Below are positions 50,266-64,000 of a stretch of 64,000 nucleotides of DNA, one piece after another. Origin of the DNA: Halomonas sp. 1513 (GTDB lineage Bacteria > Pseudomonadota > Gammaproteobacteria > Pseudomonadales > Halomonadaceae); NCBI GenBank assembly GCA_001971685.1, contig CP019326.1:992001-1056000 (forward strand), in the 5' to 3' direction. The translations under genes and the position numbers were made by a program. How positions within the stretch are numbered: position 1 is the first letter of the stretch; every line of letters starts with the position of its first letter. Under the pieces are notes generated by a model, which was given only the letters and a program-made list of their open reading frames with translations, had not been told where the DNA came from and searched no databases.

Positions 50266-52182
<1,917 letters not shown>

Positions 52183-52266
52183 CTAGGGTATTGCGGCGGT
52201 TGTGCGTTGTCAGGGAGGACAGCTGGGAGGACAGGGGCAGCCAGGCGGAATGCCCTGGCTGCGTGT

Positions 52267-52373
52267 CGCTTGATCCCTACGCTGGTCCTAGCCAGTTCAG
52301 GTTCAACGGGATCCATGCTTCGGCGCGCTGCGCTGCATGATCTCAGCCGTTTTCAACGGCACCCCGTCAAGCG
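52267..52373 (-). promoter_or_regulatory. TPP riboswitch upstream of thiC
   Basis: On the minus strand the closing helix CGCTTGA/TCAAGCG brackets the element. Inside are the conserved TPP motifs in order: GGGGTGCC, GGCTGAGA, then ACCTGAAC and GCGTAGGGA. The pyrimidine-sensing CUGAGA and the pyrophosphate-sensing helix-junction bases are intact. It controls thiC by thiamine pyrophosphate, probably at transcription end or ribosome binding. Confidence 0.95.
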
Positions 52374-52456
52374 TGGTGGTGCCCGCCGGCGAAGGCGGAC
52401 AGGTTGCTACTGCATACGTTGCTGCCTTTCTGCTTCTGGCCCGGGGCTGATCCGGC

Positions 52457-52541
52457 GGCAGGCCTACGAGGAGGCGCTATAAATACTTCCTTGTACGCTA
52501 CCTACGCCATCCATGGCGTAGAACCTCCTCTTCGGCCTGCC
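52457..52541. repeat. Structured intergenic repeat, copy A
   Basis: Three nested inverted pairs: outer GGCAGGCC (52457-52464) with GGCCTGCC (52534-52541), middle GAGGAGG (52468-52474) with CCTCCTC (52524-52530), inner TACGCCAT (52503-52510) with ATGGCGTA (52513-52520). A near copy is at 53546-53636. It lies downstream of tenA and upstream of the thiC riboswitch. Every stem is perfect. Confidence 0.88.
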
Positions 52542-52602
52542 CCCGGCGCCCCTCACCCTGTGGCAACAGCAACGGGTCTACTTCGGCTGGATGGCAGCGG
52601 AG

Positions 52603-53271
52603 TCAATCGCTGCCATCCAGCCCCATCTGCCAGAAGTCGATCTCGAGCCGCGTCGCGTCGCGGAAGATCCGCGTCAGCGCGTCGAAGCGGGCCGGCGTGA
52701 CGTCGGCCAGGCGCGCATCGAGCCATGCCAGTTCGGCGCGCATGGCGGCCTGGAACTCCTCGCCCTCGTACATGGCGATCCAGGCGTCATAGGGGTTGGC
52801 GTCGCCGCGCAGGGTATCCGGCTGAGCATTCAGCCAGTTGGCGATCTCGCCATAGCCCACCAGGCAGGGCGCCAGGGCCACATGCAGGTCGAGCAGGTCG
52901 CCGCGATTGCCGGTGTCGAGCACGTAGCGGGTATAGGCGAGGGTGGCACGCGCTTCCGGCAGTTCGGCCAGCTGCTGCTCGCTGATGCCCCACTCCCGGC
53001 AGTAGCCGACGTGCAGCTCGAGTTCGACGTCGACGATGGCCTTCAAGCCGTCATGGGCTTGGCGCAGGTCGGCCAGCGTCGGGCTCTTGTAGGCGGCCAG
53101 GGCATAGGCACGGGCGAAGTGGATCAGGAACAGGTAGTCCTGCTTGAGATAGTGGCGAAAGGCGTCATCGGCGAGGCGACTCTGGCCCAGCTGGCGCACG
53201 AAGTCGTGCTCGATATAGGCGCGCCAGTCGTCCTGGCAGGCTGCAGTGAGGTCGGTAAAGCGGTAGCCCAT
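52603..53271 (-). CDS. tenA: Thiaminase II / aminopyrimidine aminohydrolase TenA
   Basis: A 222-residue all-helical TenA. Active-site residues are visible: Asp45 in KQDYLFLIHFARAYALAA, Tyr47 and the catalytic Cys136 in VALAPCLVGYGEI, with a late Glu in MYEGEEFQAAMR. It hydrolyses degraded thiamine pyrimidines to salvage hydroxymethylpyrimidine. GGAGG lies six bases before ATG 53271. A TPP riboswitch lies 89 bp upstream, so it shares control with thiC. The start and length match the family. Confidence 0.93.
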   Translation of the reverse strand: MGYRFTDLTAACQDDWRAYIEHDFVRQLGQSRLADDAFRHYLKQDYLFLIHFARAYALAAYKSPTLADLRQAHDGLKAIVDVELELHVGYCREWGISEQQLAELPEARATLAYTRYVLDTGNRGDLLDLHVALAPCLVGYGEIANWLNAQPDTLRGDANPYDAWIAMYEGEEFQAAMRAELAWLDARLADVTPARFDALTRIFRDATRLEIDFWQMGLDGSD

Positions 53272-53659: not shown

Positions 53660-54379
53660 TCACTGGCGGCGGTAAAGCCAGCGAACGTCCACGGCGAAGG
53701 AGAGGCTCAGCAACAGCAGTGCGGTGGCAGTCAGCAGGCTGGCCAGCGCGGCCGACACCCCGGGCAGCAGAGCCACCATCAGGGCGACCACCTGAACCAC
53801 GCAGATCGCCTTGCGGCGCAGGCTCTCCGGCAGCGCTGCCTGCAGCCAGGGCCAGCGCTGGCCGCTGAACACGAAGGCGTAGCGCATGGCGCCGATCAGC
53901 AGCACCCAGCTGCCGACCTTGCCGAGCACCACCAGTGCCAGGCACAGCAGCAGAATAAGCCCAGCGTCCAGCTCCATGTCGAAGCGCGCACCGAAGGCGC
54001 TGATGGATCCAGTGCGCCTGGCCACCCAGCCGTCGATGCCGTCGAGCAGCAGCGCGGCAGCAGCGATCCCGGCGAGTGCGACGGTGTGCTGCTGCCACAG
54101 GACGGGCCACCACAGGCTGCCGGCGAGCAGCGCGATCAACGCCGCGCGCAGCAGCGTCACGCGGTTGGCCCAGCCAAAATGGCGCAGTTCTCCGGTCCAG
54201 GCAGCGGCAACCAGCACGGCGATGACGAGGTAGCTCAGGGCGCTGGTCAGGGCCAACCACCCCGGCGCGGTCAGCGCATGTTGAGTTAACTGTGCCAGCA
54301 CCAGCACAACGGCGAGCCCTGCGGCCAGATCGGCTATCGGGCGCTGAAAGGCGGTAGAAGTAGAGAGAATACGACTCAT
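53660..54379 (-). CDS. CDP-alcohol phosphatidyltransferase
   Basis: A 239-residue membrane enzyme with about seven helices. The complete CDP-alcohol motif DGx2ARx8Gx3Dx3D is present (DGWVARRTGSISAFGARFDM followed by ELD, about residues 115-137). It transfers a phosphatidyl or similar group from a CDP-linked donor to an alcohol. The acceptor and donor are unknown. It is divergent, across 203 bp, from the dehydrogenase that opens the glycoconjugate-like operon, and could act in the same pathway (inference). Confidence 0.85.
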   Translation of the reverse strand: MSRILSTSTAFQRPIADLAAGLAVVLVLAQLTQHALTAPGWLALTSALSYLVIAVLVAAAWTGELRHFGWANRVTLLRAALIALLAGSLWWPVLWQQHTVALAGIAAAALLLDGIDGWVARRTGSISAFGARFDMELDAGLILLLCLALVVLGKVGSWVLLIGAMRYAFVFSGQRWPWLQAALPESLRRKAICVVQVVALMVALLPGVSAALASLLTATALLLLSLSFAVDVRWLYRRQ

Positions 54380-54582: not shown

Positions 54583-55566
54583 ATGCCTTATACGACAAGC
54601 ATGGCCTTCTGGACGCTGGCTCCCGGTCACGGTGTGCTGCGCAGCGAGCCGCTGGAGGCGCCTGGTCCGGATGAGGTAGTGGTCGAGGCGCTTTACAGCG
54701 GTGTGAGCCGGGGTACCGAATCGCTGGTGTTCACCGGCCGGGTACCGCCCAGCGAGTATCAGCGCATGCGTGCGCCGTTTCAGGAGGGTGACTTCCCAGG
54801 CCCGCTGAAGTACGGCTACGCCAGCGTGGGTTGCGTGGTCGAGGGGCCTGAGACGCTGCGCGGGCGCACCGTATTCTGCCTCTATCCGCATCAGCAGCGC
54901 TACGTGGTGCCGGCCAGCGCCGTGCATCCGCTGCCCGATGACGTTCCCCCCGAGCGCGCCGTGTTGGCGGCCAATCTCGAGACGGCGATCAACGGCGTGT
55001 GGGACGCGGCGCCCGGGCTCGGAGATCGCATCTGCGTGATCGGCGCCGGGGTGGTCGGTGCGCTGGTGGCTTGGCTATGCCAGGGTATTCCCGGTACCCA
55101 GGTGTGCCTGGTGGATATCGAGCCAGAGCGAGCCGGCCTGGCTCGGGCGCTGGGCGTGCCCTTTGCCCTGCCCGATGAAGCGCCGCTCGACAACGACCTG
55201 GTGATCCATGCCAGCGGCCACCCTGGTGGGCTGGACACGGCGCTGCGTGTGGCCGCCCGCGAGGCCACCCTGGTCGAGATGAGCTGGTACGGCGAACAGC
55301 CAGTGGCACTGCCGCTGGGCGGCGCCTTCCACGCCCAGCGCCTGACTCTGCGCTCCAGCCAGGTGGGCGGCATCGCGCCCCAGCGTCAGCCGCGCTGGGA
55401 CTTTCGCCGGCGCATGCAGCTTGCGCTGCGGCTGCTGGCCGAGCCGCGGCTCGATGCGCTGATCAGCGGCGAGACGCCCTTCTCCTCCCTGCCCGACGAG
55501 ATGCCGCGCCTGGTACAGGGCGGCGGCACGGTGCTCTGCCACCGTATTCGCTATGCAACGACCTGA
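54583..55566 (+). CDS. MDR-superfamily dehydrogenase lacking the catalytic zinc Cys
   Basis: A 327-residue medium-chain dehydrogenase. The GroES-like part has [18 protein letters not shown] (about residues 38-55), the form seen in BchC-like proteins where the usual catalytic Cys is Ser. The Rossmann part has [20 protein letters not shown] and a downstream [17 protein letters not shown]. It probably oxidises or reduces a sugar- or pterin-like alcohol without zinc (inference). It opens a tight operon with the pterin-synthase homologue 20 bp later. The ATG at 54583 has a poor ribosome site; the AT-rich upstream region is a good promoter candidate. Confidence 0.78.
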
Positions 55567-55586
55567 CCCCCTTCGAGGAGCTGTCT

Positions 55587-55985
55587 ATGTACCGTCTGAC
55601 CGTTCGTGACCACTTCATGATCGCCCATAGCTTTCGTGGCGATATTTTCGGCCCCGCCCAGCGCACTCACGGGGCCACTTATGTGGTCGACGTCACCTTT
55701 CAGCGCCGCGAGCTGGATGACGACGACCTGATCGTGGATATCGGCCTGGCCAGCGAGACGCTGTCGACCCTGCTGGCCGAGTTCAACTTCCACAACCTCG
55801 ACGAGCTCGAGGAGTTTCAGGGCCGTAACACCACCACCGAATTCATGGCGCGGGTGATCTTCGAACGCCTCGCGGCGGCGATCGCCGACGGGCGGCTCGG
55901 CGAAGGGGGGCGTGGCCTCGAAGCGCTGACGGTCACCCTCCATGAGTCGCATATCGCCTGGGCCAGCTACGAAGGAGCGTTGTAA
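55587..55985 (+). CDS. 6-pyruvoyl-tetrahydropterin synthase/QueD homologue with altered active site
   Basis: A 132-residue T-fold protein. The fold pattern is clear: HFMIAHSF (His14), [12 protein letters not shown] (His28), the NFHNLDEL helix and [15 protein letters not shown], ending [15 protein letters not shown] with Glu120. In canonical QueD the metal is held by His in FxAAH and by both His of HGH, and a Cys lies four residues before HGH. Here the second His is Ala30 and the Cys position is Ala24; the usual Asp before the catalytic His is Phe68. So it should not work as a normal enzyme of this family, unless it uses other residues. GAGGAGC precedes the ATG at 55587. Its stop overlaps the glycosyltransferase start (TAATG). 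Confidence 0.8.
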
Positions 55986-57052
55986 TGCCGCAAGCGCCCG
56001 ATCTGTGCCTGATCGTCGCCGGCGACCCCGGGCAGCTGACCGGCGGCTATGTCTATGATGCGCGCATCGTCGCCGCCCTCGAGGCGCGCGGCTGGCGGGT
56101 CGAGGTAGTGGGGCTGGCGGGGCGGTTCCCCGACCCCGATGCACGCGCCCGTGATGCGCTGGAGACGGCGCTGGCCGCCCAGCCCGATGATCGCCGGGTG
56201 GTCATCGACGGCTTGGCCATGGGGGGGCTGCCCGAGGTGGTCGAAGCGCATGCCACACGGCTCGATCTCACGGCGCTGGTGCATCACCCGCTGGCCGACG
56301 AGACGGGGCTCGACGAAGCCACGCGTGTGCGGCTACTGGACAGCGAGGCGCGCGGCCTGGCCGCGGTGGCGCGGGTGATCAGCACCAGTGCCTTCACGGC
56401 CCGACGCCTGCGTGACTTCGGAATTGCCGCGGCACAGGTGGTCGAACCTGGCGTCGAGCCCGCGTCGCTTGCCCCCAGCGCCCTCGATCTGGAAGACAGC
56501 CAGCGTCCTCAGCGACTGCTGTGCGTGGCCACCGTGACCCCGCGCAAGGGCCACGATTTGCTGGTCGAGGCGCTGGCCGGGCTGGATGCCACCCGCTGGC
56601 GCTGTGACTGCATCGGCGGCCTCGACCGCGATCCGGCCCACGCTGAGCGGGTTGCCGCCAGCATCGCCGAGCATGGCCTCACGCAGCAGTTGCGGCTGCT
56701 CGGCGAGCGCGAGCCTCAGGCCCTGGACGTGGCCTATCGCGACGCCGACCTGTTCGTCCTGCCCTCTCACTATGAGGGCTACGGCATGGTGGTCACCGAA
56801 GCGCTGGCCCGCGGCCTGCCGGTGATTACCACCACCGGCGGGGCGCTGCGTTACACCCTGCCCGAGGGCGCCGGGCTGGCGGTGGCGCCCGGTGACGTAG
56901 AGGCCCTGCGTGGGGCCCTGCGCAGCTGGCTGGATGATGCTCGCCTGCGGCGGGAGCTGCGCCGCGGCGCCATCGCGGCCCGCGAACGGCAGAGCGACTG
57001 GCAAGCCGCGGGCGACGCCTTCGCTGCTGCGCTCGGGGTAGCGCATCCATGA
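55985..57052 (+). CDS. Glycosyltransferase family 4 protein
   Basis: A 355-residue GT-B-fold glycosyltransferase. The N-terminal domain has DPGQLTGGYVYDARIVAALE. The C-terminal donor domain has LLCVATVTPRKGHDLLVEAL and the EX7E-type motif HYEGYGMVVTEALARGLPVI for nucleotide-sugar binding. It is likely cytoplasmic and uses an NDP-sugar; acceptor unknown. Its ATG shares a base with the pterin-synthase homologue's stop, and its stop overlaps the methyltransferase start by four bases (ATGA), so the three are translationally coupled. Confidence 0.88.
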   Translation: MPQAPDLCLIVAGDPGQLTGGYVYDARIVAALEARGWRVEVVGLAGRFPDPDARARDALETALAAQPDDRRVVIDGLAMGGLPEVVEAHATRLDLTALVHHPLADETGLDEATRVRLLDSEARGLAAVARVISTSAFTARRLRDFGIAAAQVVEPGVEPASLAPSALDLEDSQRPQRLLCVATVTPRKGHDLLVEALAGLDATRWRCDCIGGLDRDPAHAERVAASIAEHGLTQQLRLLGEREPQALDVAYRDADLFVLPSHYEGYGMVVTEALARGLPVITTTGGALRYTLPEGAGLAVAPGDVEALRGALRSWLDDARLRRELRRGAIAARERQSDWQAAGDAFAAALGVAHP

Positions 57053-57945
57053 CCGTCGCGGACAACGCCGGGGGCGGCCGTTTCGCCAGCGACTGGCTGG
57101 CGCTGCGTGAGGCCGCCGATCACGCCGCACGCTGTGCCGAGCTGACCGCCGAGGCGGGTGCCTGGCTGCGCCGTCACCGGGCATCCGACAGCGCACCGCT
57201 GACGCTGGTCGATCTGGGCTGCGGGCGCGCCAGTAATCCTGCCTATTTGGCGTCGCGCCTGCCTGGCCCGCAGCGCTGGCGGCTGGTGGATCATGATCCG
57301 GCGCTGCTGGAGAGGGCTCGCCGGCGGCTGGCAGACTGTGCCGATGCGGCGGGCAGGCAGCCCGATATCGAAAACCGTCAGGTCGACCTGGCCGACCTCG
57401 AGGCGCTGCCTGGCCTGCTCGATGGCGCCGAGCTGGTGTGCGCCTCGGCGCTGTTCGATCTCTGCTCCACGGCCTGGGTCGAGGCGTTGGCCGAGGCCTG
57501 CGCGGCACGCCGCTTGGCGGCGCTGTTCACCCTCAGCGTGGATGGCCACTGGCAGTTCATCGATGCCAGCGGGCCGCGCCAGGACGCCGAAGACGATTGG
57601 GTACGCACGCTGTTCGGCGACCATCAGCGCCGCGACAAGGGGCTGGGGTCGGCGTTGGGGGGAGAGGCGCCGGCGGTGCTGGCTGCCGCCTTCGAGGCGC
57701 ACGGCTATCGCGTCGAGCGTGCCGCCAGCCCGTGGCAACTGGCGCCGGGCAGCGAGGCGGCGCTGACCCTGGGGCACGCGCTGGTGGCCGGTTGGGCCAC
57801 GGCGGCGGCCGAGCAGTGCCCCGCGCAGGCGGGGCGAAGCGAGGCCTGGCAGTTGGCCCGCCAGCGCGACCTGGCCAACGGCCGCTGCGGGGTCTGGGTC
57901 GGCCACGTCGACCTGCTGCTGCTGCCTCCTGAGGGAGCTGCCTGA
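57049..57945 (+). CDS. Class I SAM-dependent methyltransferase
   Basis: A 298-residue methyltransferase. The SAM-binding motif VDLGCGRASNPAYLASRLPG is at about residues 54-73, followed by LVDHDPALLERARRRLADC and a motif-IV-like LVCASALFDLCSTAWVEALA. The substrate cannot be told. Coupling to the glycosyltransferase upstream and the flippase-like gene downstream (TGATG overlap at 57943-57947) puts it in the same operon, where it may methylate the glycoside or the pterin-like core (inference). Confidence 0.85.
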   Translation: MTVADNAGGGRFASDWLALREAADHAARCAELTAEAGAWLRRHRASDSAPLTLVDLGCGRASNPAYLASRLPGPQRWRLVDHDPALLERARRRLADCADAAGRQPDIENRQVDLADLEALPGLLDGAELVCASALFDLCSTAWVEALAEACAARRLAALFTLSVDGHWQFIDASGPRQDAEDDWVRTLFGDHQRRDKGLGSALGGEAPAVLAAAFEAHGYRVERAASPWQLAPGSEAALTLGHALVAGWATAAAEQCPAQAGRSEAWQLARQRDLANGRCGVWVGHVDLLLLPPEGAA

Positions 57946-59897
57946 TGGGTGGCGCGACGCGGCGGCGCAGCCTGCTGCGCCTGGCGGTCAGCCTGGCGCT
58001 GCTGGGCGGCGTCGCGCTGTGGCTGGAGGCCGCGGAGGTGATCGCCGAGGTGCAGCGGCTGGCCCCTGGCTGGGTGCTGCTGGCACTGCTGCTGAGTCTG
58101 CCCCAGGTCGTGATCTCGGCGTGGCGCTGGCGCTTTACCGCCGCGCGCCTCGGAGTAGGGCTGAGCTGGCGCCATGCCATCAACGACTACTATCTGGCCA
58201 GCTTTCTCAATCAGGTGCTGCCCGGCGCGGTGCTCGGCGATGCCGCCCGCGCCTGGCGTCATGCTCGGGCCAGCGGTCAGCGCGCCGCGGCATGGCGCGG
58301 CGTGGTCATCGAGCGCGCTTCCGGCCAGCTGGTGCTGGCGGTGGTTACCCTGGCCATCCTGGCACTCTCGCCGCTGTGGCATGCCGCCATTGGCGACCTG
58401 CTGGCACGCCCCATGGTGGGCACTAGCGTCGCGGTAGTCGCAGGGCTGGCAGTGCTGGGGACGGGGCTGTGGTGGGGGCTGTGCCGCTCAGGCATCACCC
58501 CGCCGACCTGGGCCAGCGGCCTGGGTGGTGACCTGCACCGAGCGCTCTTCAGCCGGCGCGCCTGGCCGGCGCAGCTGGGGGGCTCGCTGCTGGTGCTGGC
58601 CAGCTATGGCGCGATCTTCGTCTGCGCCGCGCGGGCGATAGGTGTCGAGCTGCCGGTCACCACTCTGCTGGCGCTGCTGCCGCCGGTGCTGCTGGCGATG
58701 CTGATCCCGCTGTCGGTGGCCGGCTGGGGCTTTCGCGAGGGCGCCGCGGCGCTGGTCTGGCTCGGCGTCGGCCTGCCGCCGGCGCAGGGTGTGGCGGTGT
58801 CGGTGAGCTACGGGCTGCTGGTGCTGCTGGCCAGCCTGCCCGGGGCGCTGTGCTGGTGGCAGCGCAAGCGCAACGCGGCACCCGGCTCAGTCGATGGCGG
58901 GGCGCAGGGCGACATCGAAGAGGGTGTCGTCGCCGCAGTCGAAACGTCGCGCGGTGGGCCGCAGCGCCTGGTCGAGGGTGTCGATGACGGGCAGCGACAG
59001 CCCCGGGCGCCCGGAGCCGATCAGCAGCGGCGCTACCAGCAGATGCAGGCGGTCGACACAGCCGGCGGCGATGAACTGCGACACAGTTTGACCGCCGCCC
59101 TCGATCAGCACGCGGCGGCAGCCGGCCTGCTGCAGGACATCGATCACCGCCAGGGGAGACACCCGGCCCTCGGCGTCCTGCGTCAGCCGGTAGTGCTCGA
59201 CGTGTGTGCCAACCCCGTTGGGCGCCGCCACGCCCTCGCCGAGCAGGTGCAGCGTCGCCAGCCGCGTGTCCTGAAACACACGCCGCGCAGCCGGTACCCG
59301 GCCGCGCGGGTCGAGCACCACCCGCCGCGGCTGGCGACCCTCGACGTGGCGTACGTTGAGCTGCGGGTCGTCCTCGTCGGCGGTGCCGGCACCCACCAGC
59401 ACGGCGTCGACCAGGGCGCGCAGCCGGTGCAGATGAACCCGGCTCGCGACGCCGTTGATGTAGTGGGAGTGACCGCTGTGGGTGGCGATGCGTCCGTCGA
59501 GGCTCTGGCCGAGCTGGGCGACCACCCGCGGGCCGGCGTCGCAGACCAGCGGCAGCAGGCTGTCGAGCAGCGCGCTGGCGGCGCTGCCCAGTGTCGGCTC
59601 GGCATGCCACTGGCCGCCGCGGATCAGCGTCAGTTGGGCGCTACCCTGGCTGACGGTCAGTCGGCGCTGGCGGCTCCAGGGGTGGTCGCGCGCCGTCTGC
59701 AACGCCTGCCAGGCGAGGCTCAGCTCGCTGTCGTCGCGACGCGGCGTGGCGGGGTGGCTCATTCACGGCCTCTCTCGATCAGAAACGTTCCTTATCATGG
59801 GCAGCCGCCACGGGCGGCACAAGCCCCATGCATCCGTGGCGCCGTGGCGCCCGTATCCAGACCCATTATCCCCAGTGCCATACGCCTCCCCGGGTGA
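57945..59897 (+). CDS. Flippase-like membrane protein (UPF0104/AglD-MprF N-terminal type), with antisense extension
   Basis: The first 310 residues are a lysylphosphatidylglycerol synthase TM-region protein: about eight helices, the WRWRFTAARLGVGLSWRHAI loop and NQVLPGAVLGDAARAWRHAR motif, and the late SVAGWGFREGAAALVWLG block. Family members end near here, at GALCWWQRKRNAA (position about 58890). The frame, however, has no stop until 59897, running antisense through the whole RibD-like gene; residues 315-650 have no family sense. The extension is probably an artefact of GC-rich reading or a lost stop codon. The functional protein is likely about 310 residues, and its job may be to flip or anchor the operon's product. 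Confidence 0.7.
   Translation: MGGATRRRSLLRLAVSLALLGGVALWLEAAEVIAEVQRLAPGWVLLALLLSLPQVVISAWRWRFTAARLGVGLSWRHAINDYYLASFLNQVLPGAVLGDAARAWRHARASGQRAAAWRGVVIERASGQLVLAVVTLAILALSPLWHAAIGDLLARPMVGTSVAVVAGLAVLGTGLWWGLCRSGITPPTWASGLGGDLHRALFSRRAWPAQLGGSLLVLASYGAIFVCAARAIGVELPVTTLLALLPPVLLAMLIPLSVAGWGFREGAAALVWLGVGLPPAQGVAVSVSYGLLVLLASLPGALCWWQRKRNAAPGSVDGGAQGDIEEGVVAAVETSRGGPQRLVEGVDDGQRQPRAPGADQQRRYQQMQAVDTAGGDELRHSLTAALDQHAAAAGLLQDIDHRQGRHPALGVLRQPVVLDVCANPVGRRHALAEQVQRRQPRVLKHTPRSRYPAARVEHHPPRLATLDVAYVELRVVLVGGAGTHQHGVDQGAQPVQMNPARDAVDVVGVTAVGGDASVEALAELGDHPRAGVADQRQQAVEQRAGGAAQCRLGMPLAAADQRQLGATLADGQSALAAPGVVARRLQRLPGEAQLAVVATRRGGVAHSRPLSIRNVPYHGQPPRAAQAPCIRGAVAPVSRPIIPSAIRLPG
58887..59762 (-). 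CDS. RibD C-terminal (dihydrofolate-reductase-fold) reductase
   Basis: A 291-residue protein with an N-terminal 85-residue region of no known type and a RibD-C domain: VVAQLGQSLDGRIATHSGHS, YINGVASRVHLHRLRALVDA, VLVGAGTADEDDPQLNVRHV and LIEGGGQTVSQFIAAGCVDR. RibD-C reduces the ribose of a pyrimidine intermediate of riboflavin synthesis with NADPH. The deaminase half of RibD is missing, so this is a stand-alone reductase, perhaps for a related ribosyl-pyrimidine or pterin. It is divergent from ribA and lies entirely opposite the flippase frame's extension. Confidence 0.82.
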   Translation of the reverse strand: MSHPATPRRDDSELSLAWQALQTARDHPWSRQRRLTVSQGSAQLTLIRGGQWHAEPTLGSAASALLDSLLPLVCDAGPRVVAQLGQSLDGRIATHSGHSHYINGVASRVHLHRLRALVDAVLVGAGTADEDDPQLNVRHVEGRQPRRVVLDPRGRVPAARRVFQDTRLATLHLLGEGVAAPNGVGTHVEHYRLTQDAEGRVSPLAVIDVLQQAGCRRVLIEGGGQTVSQFIAAGCVDRLHLLVAPLLIGSGRPGLSLPVIDTLDQALRPTARRFDCGDDTLFDVALRPAID

Positions 59898-59914
59898 GGC
59901 GACAAGGAGGCTAC

Positions 59915-61057
59915 ATGCCACGTACAGGACATCACGTCGAGCGCGCCATCTTCGATCTTCGCCGCGGCGTACCGGTGGTACTGCAGGATGCCGACACGGC
60001 GACCCTGATCCAGCCGATGGAAGGACTATCGGCGAGCCAGTTGGCGACGCTGCAGGAGGACGCTGCGCTGGTGATTACCGGTCACCGTCTGGCGGTGTTG
60101 AACGGTGACGCAGGTGGCGTGTCCAGGCAGGTCGAGGCCCTGCGCCTGCCGCTGGGCAGCTGCGGCCCGCTGGATCTGGCGCGTCTCGAACGGCTGGCGT
60201 TCGGCTCCCAGGCCGAGCCGCGAACGGCGGCGCTGGCCCAACCGGCCGGGGCGGGTGAGCATGGCGCGCTGGCGCTGATGCGCCGCGCGTTGCTGATTCC
60301 CGCGGCGTTGACCGTCGAGCTGACCGGCGCCGCGCGCAGCGCCGCCCAGGCACGTATCGATGCCGGCGAGTGGTTGAGCGTCGAGGCCGAGGCGGCGATC
60401 GACTGCTTCGACAGCGCTGCCGGCATGCTGACCCGAGTCAGCGAGGCGCGGATTCCGCTGGCCGAGGCCACCGAGAGCCGTTTCATCCTGTTTCGTGAGC
60501 CGGATGGGCTGCGTGAGCACGTCGCGGTGGTGATCGGTGAGCCCGGCGACTGGCAGCCGGCAGTGCCGCTGCGCCTGCACTCGGCGTGCCTGACCGGTGA
60601 TCTGTTCGGCAGTCTGCGCTGCGACTGCGGCGAGCAGCTGCGCAACGCGGTAGCGGATATCGAGTCGCTGGGTGGTGGGGTACTGCTGTATCTGGCCCAG
60701 GAGGGGCGCGGCATCGGCCTGGCCAACAAGCTGCGCGCCTACACCCTGCAAGACGGTGGCCTGGACACCGTGGACGCCGACCGGGTGCTGGGGTTCGGCG
60801 ACGACGAGCGCCACTATCGCGCAGCGGTGGACATGCTCGCGGCACTCGAGATCCAGCGGATCCAGATGTTGACCAACAACCCGCAGAAGATCTCGGCCCT
60901 GCAGGCCGGCGGCATCGAGGTGGTGGAGCGACAGGCGCTGTATGGCCGTCTCAACGATCACAATCGCCGCTACCTGAGTGCCAAGGCCGAGCGCTCCGGG
61001 CACCTGCTGGATGAGGTGCTAAACGCCGATACGTCACGCTCTTCGGCCTGCAAGTAG
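59915..61057 (+). CDS. ribA: GTP cyclohydrolase II with atypical N-terminal domain
   Basis: A 380-residue protein. The C-terminal two thirds are GTP cyclohydrolase II: PLRLHSACLTGDLFGSLRCD with the zinc ligands (one Cys, then C-x-C), YLAQEGRGIGLANKLRAYTL and MLTNNPQKISALQAGGIEVV. The N-terminal 170 residues start HVERAIFDLRRGVPVVLQDA and do not show the DHBP synthase sequence found in RibBA fusions. It opens GTP to a 2,5-diaminopyrimidine with formate loss. AAGGAGG lies 7 bp before ATG 59915. It is divergent from the RibD-like reductase gene, which makes a shared pathway likely; it may be a second RibA beside one for riboflavin. Confidence 0.88.
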   Translation: MPRTGHHVERAIFDLRRGVPVVLQDADTATLIQPMEGLSASQLATLQEDAALVITGHRLAVLNGDAGGVSRQVEALRLPLGSCGPLDLARLERLAFGSQAEPRTAALAQPAGAGEHGALALMRRALLIPAALTVELTGAARSAAQARIDAGEWLSVEAEAAIDCFDSAAGMLTRVSEARIPLAEATESRFILFREPDGLREHVAVVIGEPGDWQPAVPLRLHSACLTGDLFGSLRCDCGEQLRNAVADIESLGGGVLLYLAQEGRGIGLANKLRAYTLQDGGLDTVDADRVLGFGDDERHYRAAVDMLAALEIQRIQMLTNNPQKISALQAGGIEVVERQALYGRLNDHNRRYLSAKAERSGHLLDEVLNADTSRSSACK

Positions 61058-61097
61058 TCTTGGCTCCTCAGTCCTGTTGCATATAGCTACGGGACTC

Positions 61098-61124
61098 GGC
61101 GAAAGCCCTGCGAGGAGGCGCTGA
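61098..61124. repeat. Left half of the structured intergenic repeat (copy C)
   Basis: The sequence GGCGAAAGCCCTGCGAGGAG and following GCGCTGA matches the left arm of copies A and B (outer GGCGAGAGGCC-like part, middle GAGGAGG, then CGCTG). No right arm follows; the creatininase stop codon begins at 61126. It lies between the convergent ribA and creatininase genes. Confidence 0.55.
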
Positions 61125-61125
61125 C

Positions 61126-61950
61126 TCAGCGCTGCTGCGCCCAGCCGGGCAGCGATAGCGTCTGGGTCTCGATCACTACCTCGGCCAGCCGCGCGGCGTA
61201 GTGTGCCACCAGCCGCTCGCCCAGCGCGGCGTCGGCCAGGGTGGCATTGCCGGCAACGCCGTCGGCGTGCAGGTCCTCGGCCAGCCAGGCGAAGGCCGCC
61301 TCGCCCTCGGGGCCCACCAGCTTGCCCGCGGCGGCCAGGGTCTCACTACTCGCCGACGGGTGACCGGCGGCTGCCTGCGTCACCTTGTGCGGCGCCAGAT
61401 GCAGCATCATCGCGGTTTCCAGCGCCCCGCCGTGAAGGCCGTGGCGCAGTTCCTCGGCGGGCAGCCAGTCGCCGGGCGGCGGCGCCAGTCGGGTATAGGT
61501 GGCCTTGACCACCAGCATGGCGTGGCGGCGGCGCAGGGCCAGTGCGGCGAGATCCATTACCGCCTTGTTGCCGCCGTGGCTGTTGAGCAGCAGCAGGCGA
61601 CGTATGCCGGCCCGGGCGAGGCTGTCGCCGTAGGCCTCGAGCGTGGCGATGGCCAAGGCAGGCGGCAGGCTCAGGGTGCCGGGATAGCTGGCGTGCTCGT
61701 CGCTGGCGCCCACCGCCAGCGGCGGCAGGCAGACCACGTTGAGGGCGGCGCCTGTCTCGGCAGGGCGCCGTGCGAGCGCCTCGAGGGTGGCCTGCTGCAG
61801 GCCCAGCCCGATATCCAGGTCGGTGGAGAGCGGCAGATGGCGACCGTGCTGCTCGACGGCACCCAGCACCAGGATCGCCACCGGGTCCTCGGCGGCCAGT
61901 GCAGCGAGGCCTTCGCTGGTCAGATCGCTCCAGTCGCCGATATGGCTCAT
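61126..61950 (-). CDS. Creatininase-family amidohydrolase (ArfB/MftE-like)
   Basis: A 274-residue metalloenzyme. Metal-site motifs are VLGAVEQHGRHLPLSTDLDI (Glu, His and Asp ligands, about residues 30-46), GASDEHASYPGTLSL, LLLNSHGGNKAVMDLAA, and a later Glu in HGGALETAMML. Relatives are creatininase, archaeal ArfB, a formamide hydrolase of the pyrimidine pathway that leads to riboflavin and F420, and MftE of mycofactocin. Its ATG overlaps the fkbM stop by four bases (ATGA), so it is coupled to fkbM and opgH. Its convergent neighbour is ribA. A deformylase or amidase in the pterin-like pathway is possible. Confidence 0.85.
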   Translation of the reverse strand: MSHIGDWSDLTSEGLAALAAEDPVAILVLGAVEQHGRHLPLSTDLDIGLGLQQATLEALARRPAETGAALNVVCLPPLAVGASDEHASYPGTLSLPPALAIATLEAYGDSLARAGIRRLLLLNSHGGNKAVMDLAALALRRRHAMLVVKATYTRLAPPPGDWLPAEELRHGLHGGALETAMMLHLAPHKVTQAAAGHPSASSETLAAAGKLVGPEGEAAFAWLAEDLHADGVAGNATLADAALGERLVAHYAARLAEVVIETQTLSLPGWAQQR

Positions 61951-62750
61951 GGCGTTGCTCCCGTTGGCGGGGTGGGCTGGCGGCGGGCATACAGATCGCC
62001 GGAGGCCAGGCCGTCGGCGCCGTCAGCGAGCCAGGCGCGTATCTGCACGGGGCTGCGCCACTCACCCCAGATGAACGCCCGGCGCTCGCCCTGGATGGCG
62101 TTGAAACGGTAGTCGCCGAGGGCCTCGAGGCGTGCCACGCAGGCCTCGGCAACGTCCAGCGCACCGGCCACGAACTCCACGGACAGCGCCTCTACCGGCT
62201 GGCTGAGGCCGGCCAGTACCTCGGCCTCGAAGCCCTCGACATCGACCTTGATGAAGCGCGGCACGCCGAAGCGCGCGATCAGGGCGTCGAGGGTGGTCAC
62301 CGTCACCGTCACTCGGCGCTCCCAGCGGACCTGGCGAAAGCCGGGATTGGTGCGGCCGATGCGCTTGCGCCAGTGGCGCGCCAGCGTCGAGACGCTGGGG
62401 TTGGCGACGCTGATGGCGATCTCGGCCTCGCCCTCCTCGGGCCCGGCGGCCACGGGCATCAGCACCAGGCCGCGGCGCGCGCCCATCAGCCGCACCAGCC
62501 AGCGGAACAGGCCCGGCTGCGGCTCCAGCGCCACCACCTCGGCGCCCAGCGCCTGGAAAGCGGCGGTGCGGTCGCCGAGATGGGCGCCGATATCGAACGC
62601 CAGGTCGCCGGGGGCCAGGAATTCGGCGTAGAGACGCTGAAGGCCAGGCTGACGCCCCGGGCGCCAGTACACCACCAGCGAGCGAGCCAGGCCGAGTGCG
62701 GCCTTGACACGCTGCTGCAGCGGCGGAGGGGAGTCGATGGCATGGGGCAT
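61947..62750 (-). CDS. FkbM-family methyltransferase
   Basis: A 267-residue SAM-dependent methyltransferase of the FkbM type. The SAM motif LAFDIGAHLGDRTAAFQALG is at about residues 48-67, then VVALEPQPGLFRWLVRLMGA, the family's IKVDVEGFEAEVLAGL block and SVEFVAGALDVAEACVARLE. FkbM proteins O-methylate sugars and polyketides. The ATG at 62750 shares one base with the opgH stop (TGATG), so it is translationally coupled to the glucan synthase and could methylate its glucan (inference). A longer frame upstream is inside opgH. Confidence 0.85.
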   Translation of the reverse strand: MPHAIDSPPPLQQRVKAALGLARSLVVYWRPGRQPGLQRLYAEFLAPGDLAFDIGAHLGDRTAAFQALGAEVVALEPQPGLFRWLVRLMGARRGLVLMPVAAGPEEGEAEIAISVANPSVSTLARHWRKRIGRTNPGFRQVRWERRVTVTVTTLDALIARFGVPRFIKVDVEGFEAEVLAGLSQPVEALSVEFVAGALDVAEACVARLEALGDYRFNAIQGERRAFIWGEWRSPVQIRAWLADGADGLASGDLYARRQPTPPTGATP

Positions 62751-64000
62751 CAGTAGGGTTCCTTTAGCGGCGGGCGATGGCGTGCCGGTCGCTGGCGGCG
62801 CCAGCCCAGGTGCTGGAGAGGCATATCGCCTGGCTGCTCGGCCGGTACGCTGGCGGCGCGGCTGTCGGCGTGCGCCGGCGTGGCGCACGCCAGTGTCTGG
62901 TCGAGGCGCATCAGTACCGCGGCGGGCGTCTCTTCACCGGGGGTTGCCAGCAGCCCGACGCCTGCCAGCCAGGCGCCGAGGCGGCGACTGCCCGACAGCC
63001 GCACCAGCAGCGGGGCAATGATCAATCCCACCCATACCGGGGTCAGCCACCAGAAGAAGCTCGGCGTGAACTGGTACATGGCCAGCGCCCAGGCGCCGCC
63101 GACCAGGGTTGCGGCGCGAGTGTGAGCGAACGCCTGGCGCCATGCCACCGACCGGCCCTCGCGCACCTGCGGGTCCCAGCCGACGCTGCGCCCGATCAGG
63201 ATGCCAAGCACGAAGACGGTATGGAAGACCATCATCAGCGGGGCGATCAGGATCGCGTGGAACATCTCCAGCAGTGCACTCAGGCTGAGCCGCCAGCGCC
63301 CGCCGAAGGCTGCCGGGGTTTGCCACAGCGCCAGCAGCAGGCCGAACAGCTTGGGCAGCAGCAGCATGGCGGCGGTCAGCGCCAGCAGCGGCATGACCAT
63401 TGCGCTGGTGTCCAGCGGCCAGTCGGGAAACAGCTGGTAGGTGTCGCTGAAGAAGCGCTCACGGCTGAAGGCGTTGAGCATGGCGGCGGCACTGCTCAGC
63501 GCCAGCATCAGTACCCACAGCAGCGAGGAGAGGTAGGCCAGCGCGCCCATGGCGAAATGCAGGCGACTGATCGGGTGCAGGCCGCCGGCCGCCAGCAGGC
63601 GCAGGTGCTGGAGATTGCCCTGGGTCCAGCGCCGGTCGCGCCGCGCATAGTCGAGCAGGTTGCCGGGCAGCTCCTCGAAGCTCGCCGTGATGCTCGCGTC
63701 GAGCCGCACCCGCCAGCCGCCGCGGCGCAGCAGCGCGGCTTCGACGAAGTCGTGGCTCATGATGTCGCCGCCCAGCGGCGGGCGGCCCGATAGCGCGGGC
63801 AGGCCGCAGTGGGCCATGAAGGCACGGGTGCGCAGGATGGCGTTGTGCCCCCAGTAGTTGGCGCAGTCGCCCTGCCAGAAGGCCTGGCCGGCAGCCAGCA
63901 TGGGGCTGTAGAGCGCCGCGGCGAACTGGGTGAAGCGTCCGAACAGGGTGGCCTGGCGCACCGGGATCGGCACCGTCTGCAGGAGGCCCAGCTCGGGCTC
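62750..64000 (-). CDS. opgH: Glucans biosynthesis glucosyltransferase H, C-terminal part (partial)
   Basis: The frame is open to the window edge, so the N-terminal part is outside. The visible 416 residues begin in the GT2 catalytic domain: FWQGDCANYWGHNAILRTRA, then GGDIMSHDFVEAALLRRGGW and the (Q/R)xxRW motif DYARRDRRWTQGNLQHL. They continue through about six membrane helices (GALAYLSSLLWVLMLALSSA and following). It matches OpgH/MdoH, which makes the beta-1,2-glucan backbone of osmoregulated periplasmic glucans. In most bacteria opgG precedes it. Here fkbM and a creatininase follow in the same operon, which is unusual. Confidence 0.9.
   Translation of the reverse strand, partial: EPELGLLQTVPIPVRQATLFGRFTQFAAALYSPMLAAGQAFWQGDCANYWGHNAILRTRAFMAHCGLPALSGRPPLGGDIMSHDFVEAALLRRGGWRVRLDASITASFEELPGNLLDYARRDRRWTQGNLQHLRLLAAGGLHPISRLHFAMGALAYLSSLLWVLMLALSSAAAMLNAFSRERFFSDTYQLFPDWPLDTSAMVMPLLALTAAMLLLPKLFGLLLALWQTPAAFGGRWRLSLSALLEMFHAILIAPLMMVFHTVFVLGILIGRSVGWDPQVREGRSVAWRQAFAHTRAATLVGGAWALAMYQFTPSFFWWLTPVWVGLIIAPLLVRLSGSRRLGAWLAGVGLLATPGEETPAAVLMRLDQTLACATPAHADSRAASVPAEQPGDMPLQHLGWRRQRPARHRPPLKEPY

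Follow-up and report, generated by a model that had tools for sequence, protein, structure and literature searches.

The window analysed here is a 64,000-nucleotide stretch of Halomonas sp. 1513 (contig CP019326.1, positions 992,001 to 1,056,000; the source genome is a single contig of 4.13 Mb), and it contains a cluster of about ten genes centred on PTPS-IV, a subfamily of the 6-pyruvoyl-tetrahydropterin synthase (PTPS) family. We tentatively propose that this module makes and exports a sugar-bearing, methylated, membrane-linked pterin-like compound from GTP. The gene families, their linkage and co-distribution, the gene fusions and the residues lost or kept are read from sequence, and from these we infer all of the chemical steps, their order and the product. 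The grouping itself goes far beyond chance, as seen in the recurrence of its core and in its co-distribution across 58 related genomes, and it represents a real and widely conserved pathway, for which publications already exist on the protein subfamily and on part of the gene neighbourhood. The genes, with their positions in the window, strand and family match, are as follows.

53660..54379, minus strand: CDP-alcohol phosphatidyltransferase (PF01066; Pfam, 1.3e-16), divergent from the operon
54583..55566, plus strand: MDR-family dehydrogenase, BchC-like or polyol-dehydrogenase-like (TIGR01202 BchC, 2.5e-16)
55587..55985, plus strand: PTPS-IV (T-fold), with FGPAQ, HGA in place of HGH, and Glu120 kept (Pfam, 4e-25)
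55985..57052, plus strand: GT4-type glycosyltransferase (PF00534, 9e-31)
57049..57945, plus strand: class I S-adenosylmethionine (SAM) methyltransferase (family scan; AlphaFold model with a predicted local distance difference test score, pLDDT, of 94.5)
57945..59897, plus strand: LPG_synthase_TM (flippase-like) membrane protein, family part 57945 to about 58890 (PF03706, 1.2e-33, residues 14-298)
58887..59762, minus strand: stand-alone RibD_C reductase of the MjaRED/ArfC type, without a deaminase domain (PF01872, 4e-39)
59915..61057, plus strand: GTP cyclohydrolase II (cluster RibA), with an N-terminal part of about 170 residues (Pfam, 6e-54)
61126..61950, minus strand: creatininase-family amidohydrolase, ArfB/MftE superfamily (PF02633, 2e-60)
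61947..62756, minus strand: FkbM-family methyltransferase, accessory (TIGR01444, 7.5e-25)

Conservation and co-distribution of the cluster

One genome per species was scanned for PTPS-IV, which confirmed at least 572 relatives; the best 80 of these at least 572 loci were compared together with loci from 6 of 21 plasmid records and 12 gammaproteobacterial stretches, the latter drawn from 12 of the 16 PTPS-IV genomes other than our own (G014, G018, G336 and G423 were left out). The resulting 98 loci include Gemmatimonadota and Actinomycetota. Two loci without the operon (L028 and L029, where the neighbours of PTPS-IV are MEKHLA, cupin or metallo-hydrolase genes) were excluded from the gene counts, leaving 96, a biased sample that leans to Halomonadaceae (34/96) and spans 31 labels at family level, of which some are record titles. 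Among the matches listed, the closest named relatives of the window PTPS were from Halomonas and other Halomonadaceae.

The cluster core is found again in 96 of these 98 loci. GT4 lies directly downstream of PTPS in 96/96, and MDR directly upstream in 94/96, the exceptions being L090 and L207. Within 8.5 kb of PTPS, GT4 was found in 96 loci, MDR in 95, the methyltransferase in 93, the CDP-alcohol transferase in 83, RibD_C in 77, the flippase in 74, creatininase in 57, RibA in 53, YceI in 36, FkbM in 29 and cytochrome b561 in 5. Some loci end early; of the 79 that are well covered (6.5 kb or more to either side), 48 have both RibA and creatininase, 23 have neither, 4 have RibA alone and 4 creatininase alone. 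Rearranged clusters (L030, L071, L100 and L205) retain most of the gene set, and the cassette is also retained, in the order of the window, in gammaproteobacterial genomes of about 1 Mb (G213, G420 and G325; loci L199, L200 and L201), where it runs CDP-alcohol transferase-MDR-PTPS-GT4-methyltransferase-flippase-RibD_C in a stretch without RibA or creatininase. The RibD_C gene of L201 is split in two pieces.

The co-distribution set comprised 58 related genomes, our own included, which are not independent of each other, and 23 of these have the cluster-type PTPS. Cluster-type RibD_C (E ≤1.2e-62; next best 8e-27) is present in 22 of the 23 PTPS-IV genomes and in none of the 35 others, the sole miss being G023, whose PTPS lies only 2.5 kb from a contig end. 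Similarly, cluster-type RibA (E ≤4e-112) was found in 18/23 and cluster-type creatininase (E ≤1.6e-82) in 19/23, each against 0/35; G020, which is without cluster-type PTPS, has a distant creatininase-family match of 35% identity. Of 369 genomes drawn evenly from the class, 17 have PTPS-IV (E ≤8e-40; next 7e-15).

An earlier note on this DNA, made from its letters and open reading frames, had proposed that the operon and its flanking genes share a pathway, an idea that would have been weakened by relatives carrying the flanking genes without the operon or by a window RibA that was the only one in its genome. Neither was observed, as the cluster-type flanking genes are confined to genomes with PTPS-IV, and the genome has another, intact RibA at 155 kb and a RibD near 1.19 Mb. 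Linkage and co-distribution therefore support one functional module that includes RibA, RibD_C and creatininase.

Phylogeny and residues of the cluster GTP cyclohydrolase II

The history of cluster RibA was followed in a tree of 30 of 32 GTP cyclohydrolase II domains, from which L141 (a long branch) and L072 (the same gene as L130) had been removed. Cluster RibA falls in three places of this tree, one proteobacterial together with Gemmatimonadota and Rhizobium, one in Streptomyces/Amycolatopsis and one in Micromonospora. A single clade of cluster RibA was rejected (approximately unbiased test, p-AU 1.3e-45), and the starred branches force at least four label changes. According to this phylogeny the cluster acquired its GTP cyclohydrolase II on more than one occasion, and such repeated recruitment is the strongest evidence that the product of RibA activity is wanted by the cluster. 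The GTP-derived start that the earlier note had envisaged is thus supported by co-distribution, the RibA tree and linkage.

These data bear on the possibility that the product of the operon is a glycolipid or envelope glycan with no connection to GTP, and that RibA, RibD_C and creatininase are adjacent for another reason, such as a second riboflavin supply. The 23 well-covered loci that lack both RibA and creatininase, Marinobacter clusters among them, would fit this explanation, as would the presence of OpgG/OpgH (osmoregulated glucan) genes near the cluster in several lineages (Halomonadaceae, Marinobacter, Gemmatimonadota, Kiloniellales and a Methylosinus plasmid). However, RibD_C tracks the operon (22/23 versus 0/35 genomes) and is retained with it in the genomes of about 1 Mb, RibA has been recruited repeatedly, and the rearranged clusters keep most of their genes; we regard a product unrelated to GTP as distinctly unlikely.

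The window RibA retains its zinc ligands (Cys54, Cys65 and Cys67) together with Arg128 and Tyr105 (E. coli numbering). Tyr105 of GTP cyclohydrolase II has a role in formate removal, and the window enzyme, having kept it, should release formate by itself; it is not of the formamidopyrimidine (FAPy)-forming type, in which Met replaces this Tyr. Position 105 of cluster RibA is Met in 11 Streptomyces/Amycolatopsis loci and Ile in L081, and the Streptomyces proteins are 203-232 residues long, without the N-terminal part. Met105 is said to be the change that makes SCO6655 of Streptomyces coelicolor, which presumably sits in such a PTPS-IV cluster, stop at the formamide. In the excerpt of a paper on a metabolic model, SCO6655 is entered as a riboflavin gene (PMC2853524). 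RibA copies without Tyr105 are always accompanied by creatininase (12/12, from two lineages only). A third GTP cyclohydrolase II-like domain of our genome (G000:C1:1192859-1193335), at the end of a 388-residue frame, has no zinc Cys and is probably not active.

Features of the PTPS-IV protein

The Glu of the HESH motif holds pterins in the PTPS family, and both this Glu and the His of the first zinc motif are found in 98/98 of the PTPS-IV loci other than the window. The remaining zinc site is altered: the window PTPS has HGAT, as do 97/98 of the other loci, HGH occurs in 0/98, and the Cys of CxxxHGH is replaced by Ala in 98/98. The window protein has none of the CxxxHGH, CxxxxxHGH or ExxHGH motifs of active PTPS/QueD (PTPS-I, -II and -III). 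Among solved structures its one confident relative is SCO6650 of Streptomyces coelicolor (PDB 3d7j, 1.4e-53), in which the authors of the structure reportedly found neither zinc nor PTPS activity. The earlier note had linked this QueD/PTPS homologue to the building of pterins. With the second His of HGH and the CxxxHGH Cys lost throughout the other loci as well, this found no support in its usual form; the window PTPS is probably not a typical pterin builder. Queuosine synthesis was also rejected, since the QueD motif is absent and the QueD model score is 43.7 against a cut-off of 89.25.

PTPS-IV is very common, with at least 8000 candidates scored, all at E <1e-20. Among the best 120 matches many are named 6-carboxytetrahydropterin or 6-pyruvoyl-tetrahydropterin synthase and one is named PTPS-like type 4; the synthase names are contradicted because the PTPS-IV motif differs.

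FGPAQ was given in 2017 as the signature of PTPS-IV, a subfamily of COG0720, for 561 sequences whose neighbours include PF00925 and PF01872; PF00925 was interpreted there as GTP cyclohydrolase I/FolE2 (AGeNNT; excerpt of PMC5445326). FGPAQ forms residues 21-25 of the window PTPS and occurs in 93/98 of the other loci, and the window genes include both PF00925 and PF01872. An assignment of PTPS-IV to the synthesis of the deazaflavin F420 has been made citing unpublished work (Zallot 2016; excerpt of PMC5041015). Early steps of the ArfA, ArfB and ArfC type also resemble those preceding F0. On the other hand, CofD (PF01933) is absent from 22 of the 23 PTPS-IV genomes, our own included, and the sole match, in G014, is a 428-residue frame comparable to those of 414-422 residues in three family members without PTPS-IV. 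Moreover, GT4, the methyltransferase, the flippase and the phosphatidyltransferase are not known to have a place in F420 synthesis. F420 synthesis was rejected on the CofD distribution, and we consider it the most improbable of the explanations weighed here.

The RibD_C reductase and the creatininase

By Pfam scan the window RibD_C has no deaminase domain, a feature that it shares with the diaminopyrimidinone reductases of the ArfC/RIB7 type, and its top PDB matches are the stand-alone reductases 2azn and 6p8c, of which 6p8c is named for a non-deaminated substrate. The 2-amino group is therefore expected to remain after the predicted reduction. RibA and RibD_C are families common to riboflavin synthesis, which would suit a riboflavin or toxoflavin-like route, that is, a second flavin or azapteridine pathway. 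However, the deaminase domain is missing, an intact RibA and a RibD lie elsewhere in the genome, and the other cluster genes scanned with Pfam are not riboflavin genes (lumazine/riboflavin synthase and toxoflavin genes were not searched for), all of which makes such a route very unlikely. A second full riboflavin operon was likewise rejected, RibA and RibD_C being the only such genes among those scanned.

In the creatininase, residues E33, H35, D44, H125 and E178, which we take to be the metal ligands, are invariant in 24/24 sequences. The window protein thus belongs, like ArfB, to the creatininase family with the ligands in place; its nearest NCBIfam model is MftE, below cut-off (100 of 172 bits).

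The dehydrogenase, glycosyltransferase, methyltransferase and membrane genes

The MDR protein falls below the cut-off of Pfam ADH_zinc_N (22.5 of 31.8 bits), and its best NCBIfam match is BchC (TIGR01202), with 59.7 bits against a cut-off of 291. The structures ranked highest for its model (pLDDT 92.4), in a re-ranking that covered Foldseek's top 1000 only, include iditol, xylitol, idonate and sorbitol dehydrogenases, and alcohol dehydrogenases of other kinds come within about 2.5 Z of these polyol dehydrogenases. In one weak alignment, Ser-Arg stands at the position of the zinc Cys.

In 27 of the 96 loci a single open frame covers both GT4 and the methyltransferase. The methyltransferase model resembles class I methyltransferases generally, and neither the structure search nor the sequence-profile search indicated a substrate. 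By analogy with the gene order in other Streptomyces, SCO6652 could be the methyltransferase of the S. coelicolor cluster; the excerpted table of S. coelicolor mycelium-stage genes gives SCO6652 the values 0.8, 4.3 and 4.1 (PMC3610822). On the membrane side, YceI adjoins the CDP-alcohol transferase, after it and on the same strand, in 34 of the 36 loci that have it, is fused with it in L071, and was confirmed by Pfam in 6/6 cases tested. These results support the glycosyltransferase, methyltransferase and membrane families that the earlier note had assigned; the fusion of GT4 with the methyltransferase, the YceI partner and the repeated recruitment of RibA were out of its sight.

All of the genes in that note's list were recovered by Pfam and NCBIfam scans where it had placed them, and the junctions TAATG, ATGA and TGATG that it gave were confirmed by reading the sequence directly. 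MDR and PTPS are separated by 20 bases, and the cluster has a G+C content of 70% versus 66% for the window. The flippase frame is free of stops until 59897 and therefore traverses the entire antisense strand of RibD_C (58887-59762, minus strand); only its first 300-315 or so residues belong to the flippase family, and the remaining 330 or so are antisense to RibD_C and codon-aligned with it. None of the 292 RibD_C codons is TTA, CTA or TCA. Of 66 other loci, 21 have a tail of more than 200 residues, and every one of these belongs to Halomonadaceae. The cluster is adjoined by an OpgH-like glucosyltransferase gene (62750-63973, minus strand), truncated by the end of the window, and, at 50266-53271 on the minus strand, by a long frame that we take to be ThiC-like and a TenA-family gene (PF03070); among the loci scanned for it, TenA matches were restricted to Halomonadaceae.

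A proposed pathway and its weighing

In the pathway that we tentatively favour, RibA would open GTP to give 2,5-diamino-6-(5-phosphoribosylamino)pyrimidin-4-one, and the stand-alone RibD_C would convert the ribosyl into a ribityl chain without deamination, the 2-amino group being kept. The BchC-like MDR may then oxidise a secondary hydroxyl of the ribityl compound; if the target is the 2'-OH, this would give a 1'-deoxy-2'-keto compound, the same as the Amadori product of GTP cyclohydrolase I. PTPS-IV, with its Glu kept and its zinc site lost, could bind the keto compound and aid closure of the pterin ring by the 5-amino group. The 2'-oxidation and the ring closure are suggested by the MDR and PTPS-IV families. 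GT4 would attach a sugar; the methyltransferase, with which it is often fused, would then methylate the compound, after which the CDP-alcohol phosphatidyltransferase may couple the product to a lipid and the LPG_TM protein flip it outward. In many relatives a periplasmic YceI could hold the product, and where RibA cannot remove the formyl group (the Met105 types) creatininase may strip it.

The same module could also start from GTP and keep an open pyrimidine core, 2,5-diamino-6-ribitylamino-pyrimidinone or a formyl or acyl derivative, with MDR and PTPS-IV acting on the sugar or in carrier binding and no pterin ring being formed. RibD_C is expected from its family to yield a ribityl pyrimidine, the second His of HGH is missing from PTPS-IV, as is the Cys of the ring-active enzymes, and creatininase could cleave a formamide or another amide of such a compound. 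However, PTPS-IV keeps the pterin-holding Glu, and the adjacency of MDR and PTPS in 94/96 loci suggests consecutive steps; we judge the open pyrimidine to be somewhat unlikely, and tentatively favour the pterin-like product.

Several observations weigh against that pterin-like reading. In the RibA tree, L123 of G068, labelled housekeeping, nests within the proteobacterial cluster group. The entry of GTP was checked in eight chosen PTPS-IV genomes, most of them with clusters that lack RibA, and an intact-looking GTP cyclohydrolase II was found in only two of them (our own and G293); G213, G420, G209, G321 and G139 have only a copy lacking the zinc Cys, and G325 has no GTP cyclohydrolase II. FolE-type GTP cyclohydrolase I was found in 2 of the 8, with no match in G213, G420, G209, G321, G139 or G325 (FolE2 and GTP cyclohydrolase III were not searched for). 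RibD_C is missing nearby in 12 of the 79 well-covered loci, ten of which are from Streptomyces/Amycolatopsis; six of these ten genomes were searched and have 4 to 23 RibD_C-family matches each, and L100, a cluster of the Streptomyces/Amycolatopsis type, does have RibD_C adjacent. The formamidase step attributed to creatininase is plausible and unproven: RibA with Tyr105, the type of the window, is also accompanied by creatininase in 36/39 cases, so that formate removal leaves the creatininase of the window unexplained. In addition, creatininase occurs without RibA within 8.5 kb in 4/79 loci (in one of them, L096, RibA lies just beyond) and RibA without creatininase in another 4/79. The replacement of the MDR family zinc Cys, which is probable, has the single weak alignment as its basis, and L207 is a PTPS-GT4-methyltransferase core without MDR. 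The Streptomyces plasmid loci L028 and L029 have PTPS-IV alone, with no operon, and YceI is not part of the window cluster, the single YceI of our genome lying at 2.54 Mb, 1.5 Mb away.

A more far-reaching version, which we think unlikely, would make RibA, the deaminase-free RibD_C, the BchC-like MDR and PTPS-IV a second route to a dihydropterin, independent of GTP cyclohydrolase I and leading into pterin chemistry by way of enzymes of the riboflavin type. The pterin would be glycosylated, methylated and anchored to a phospholipid on the periplasmic face, where YceI would bind it and, in some species, a cytochrome b561 would serve it, and it might act as a membrane redox cofactor across Pseudomonadota, Actinomycetota and Gemmatimonadota.

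Relation to known systems

The window PTPS is a member of the published PTPS-IV neighbourhood, with which it shares FGPAQ, PF00925 and PF01872. The excerpts of PMC5445326 and PMC5041015 make no mention of YceI, MDR, GT4, the methyltransferase, the flippase, creatininase or the CDP-alcohol transferase, and on the product they offer only the remark on F420 from unpublished work. Other Streptomyces carry MDR-PTPS-GT4-methyltransferase-flippase-creatininase-RibA, a set like that of the window, although their RibA is short and has Met105, whereas the window RibA has Tyr105 and an N-terminal part. The archaeal ArfA-ArfB-ArfC route, which leads to riboflavin and F420, shares with the window the opening of GTP, a creatininase-family formamide hydrolase and a stand-alone reductase (2azn being the top match of the window RibD_C). 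The window differs from it in having a bacterial RibA in place of ArfA with Tyr105 kept, in the absence of CofD (22/23), and in its glycosylation and membrane genes. The cyanobacterial pterin glycosides cyanopterin and biopterin glucoside are also sugar-bearing pterins, but their route begins with GTP cyclohydrolase I and a PTPS-II that has its zinc site, and is not known to include RibD_C, a flippase or a phosphatidyltransferase.

The earlier note knew of no described pathway with this exact set. For the product this still stands, since no description of it was found in the open-licence literature, as judged by titles and abstract openings; for the genes it stands only in part, the PTPS-IV/PF00925/PF01872 neighbourhood being in print (excerpt of PMC5445326) and the SCO6650 structure having been solved.

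Taken together, the evidence links PTPS-IV with a definite group of some seven to ten genes, and one family of genomes of about 1 Mb keeps most of them. YceI is a widespread protein whose ligand is unclear, and identification of the product would offer it a candidate partner. It would also correct thousands of annotations, and could reveal a new GTP-derived membrane compound.

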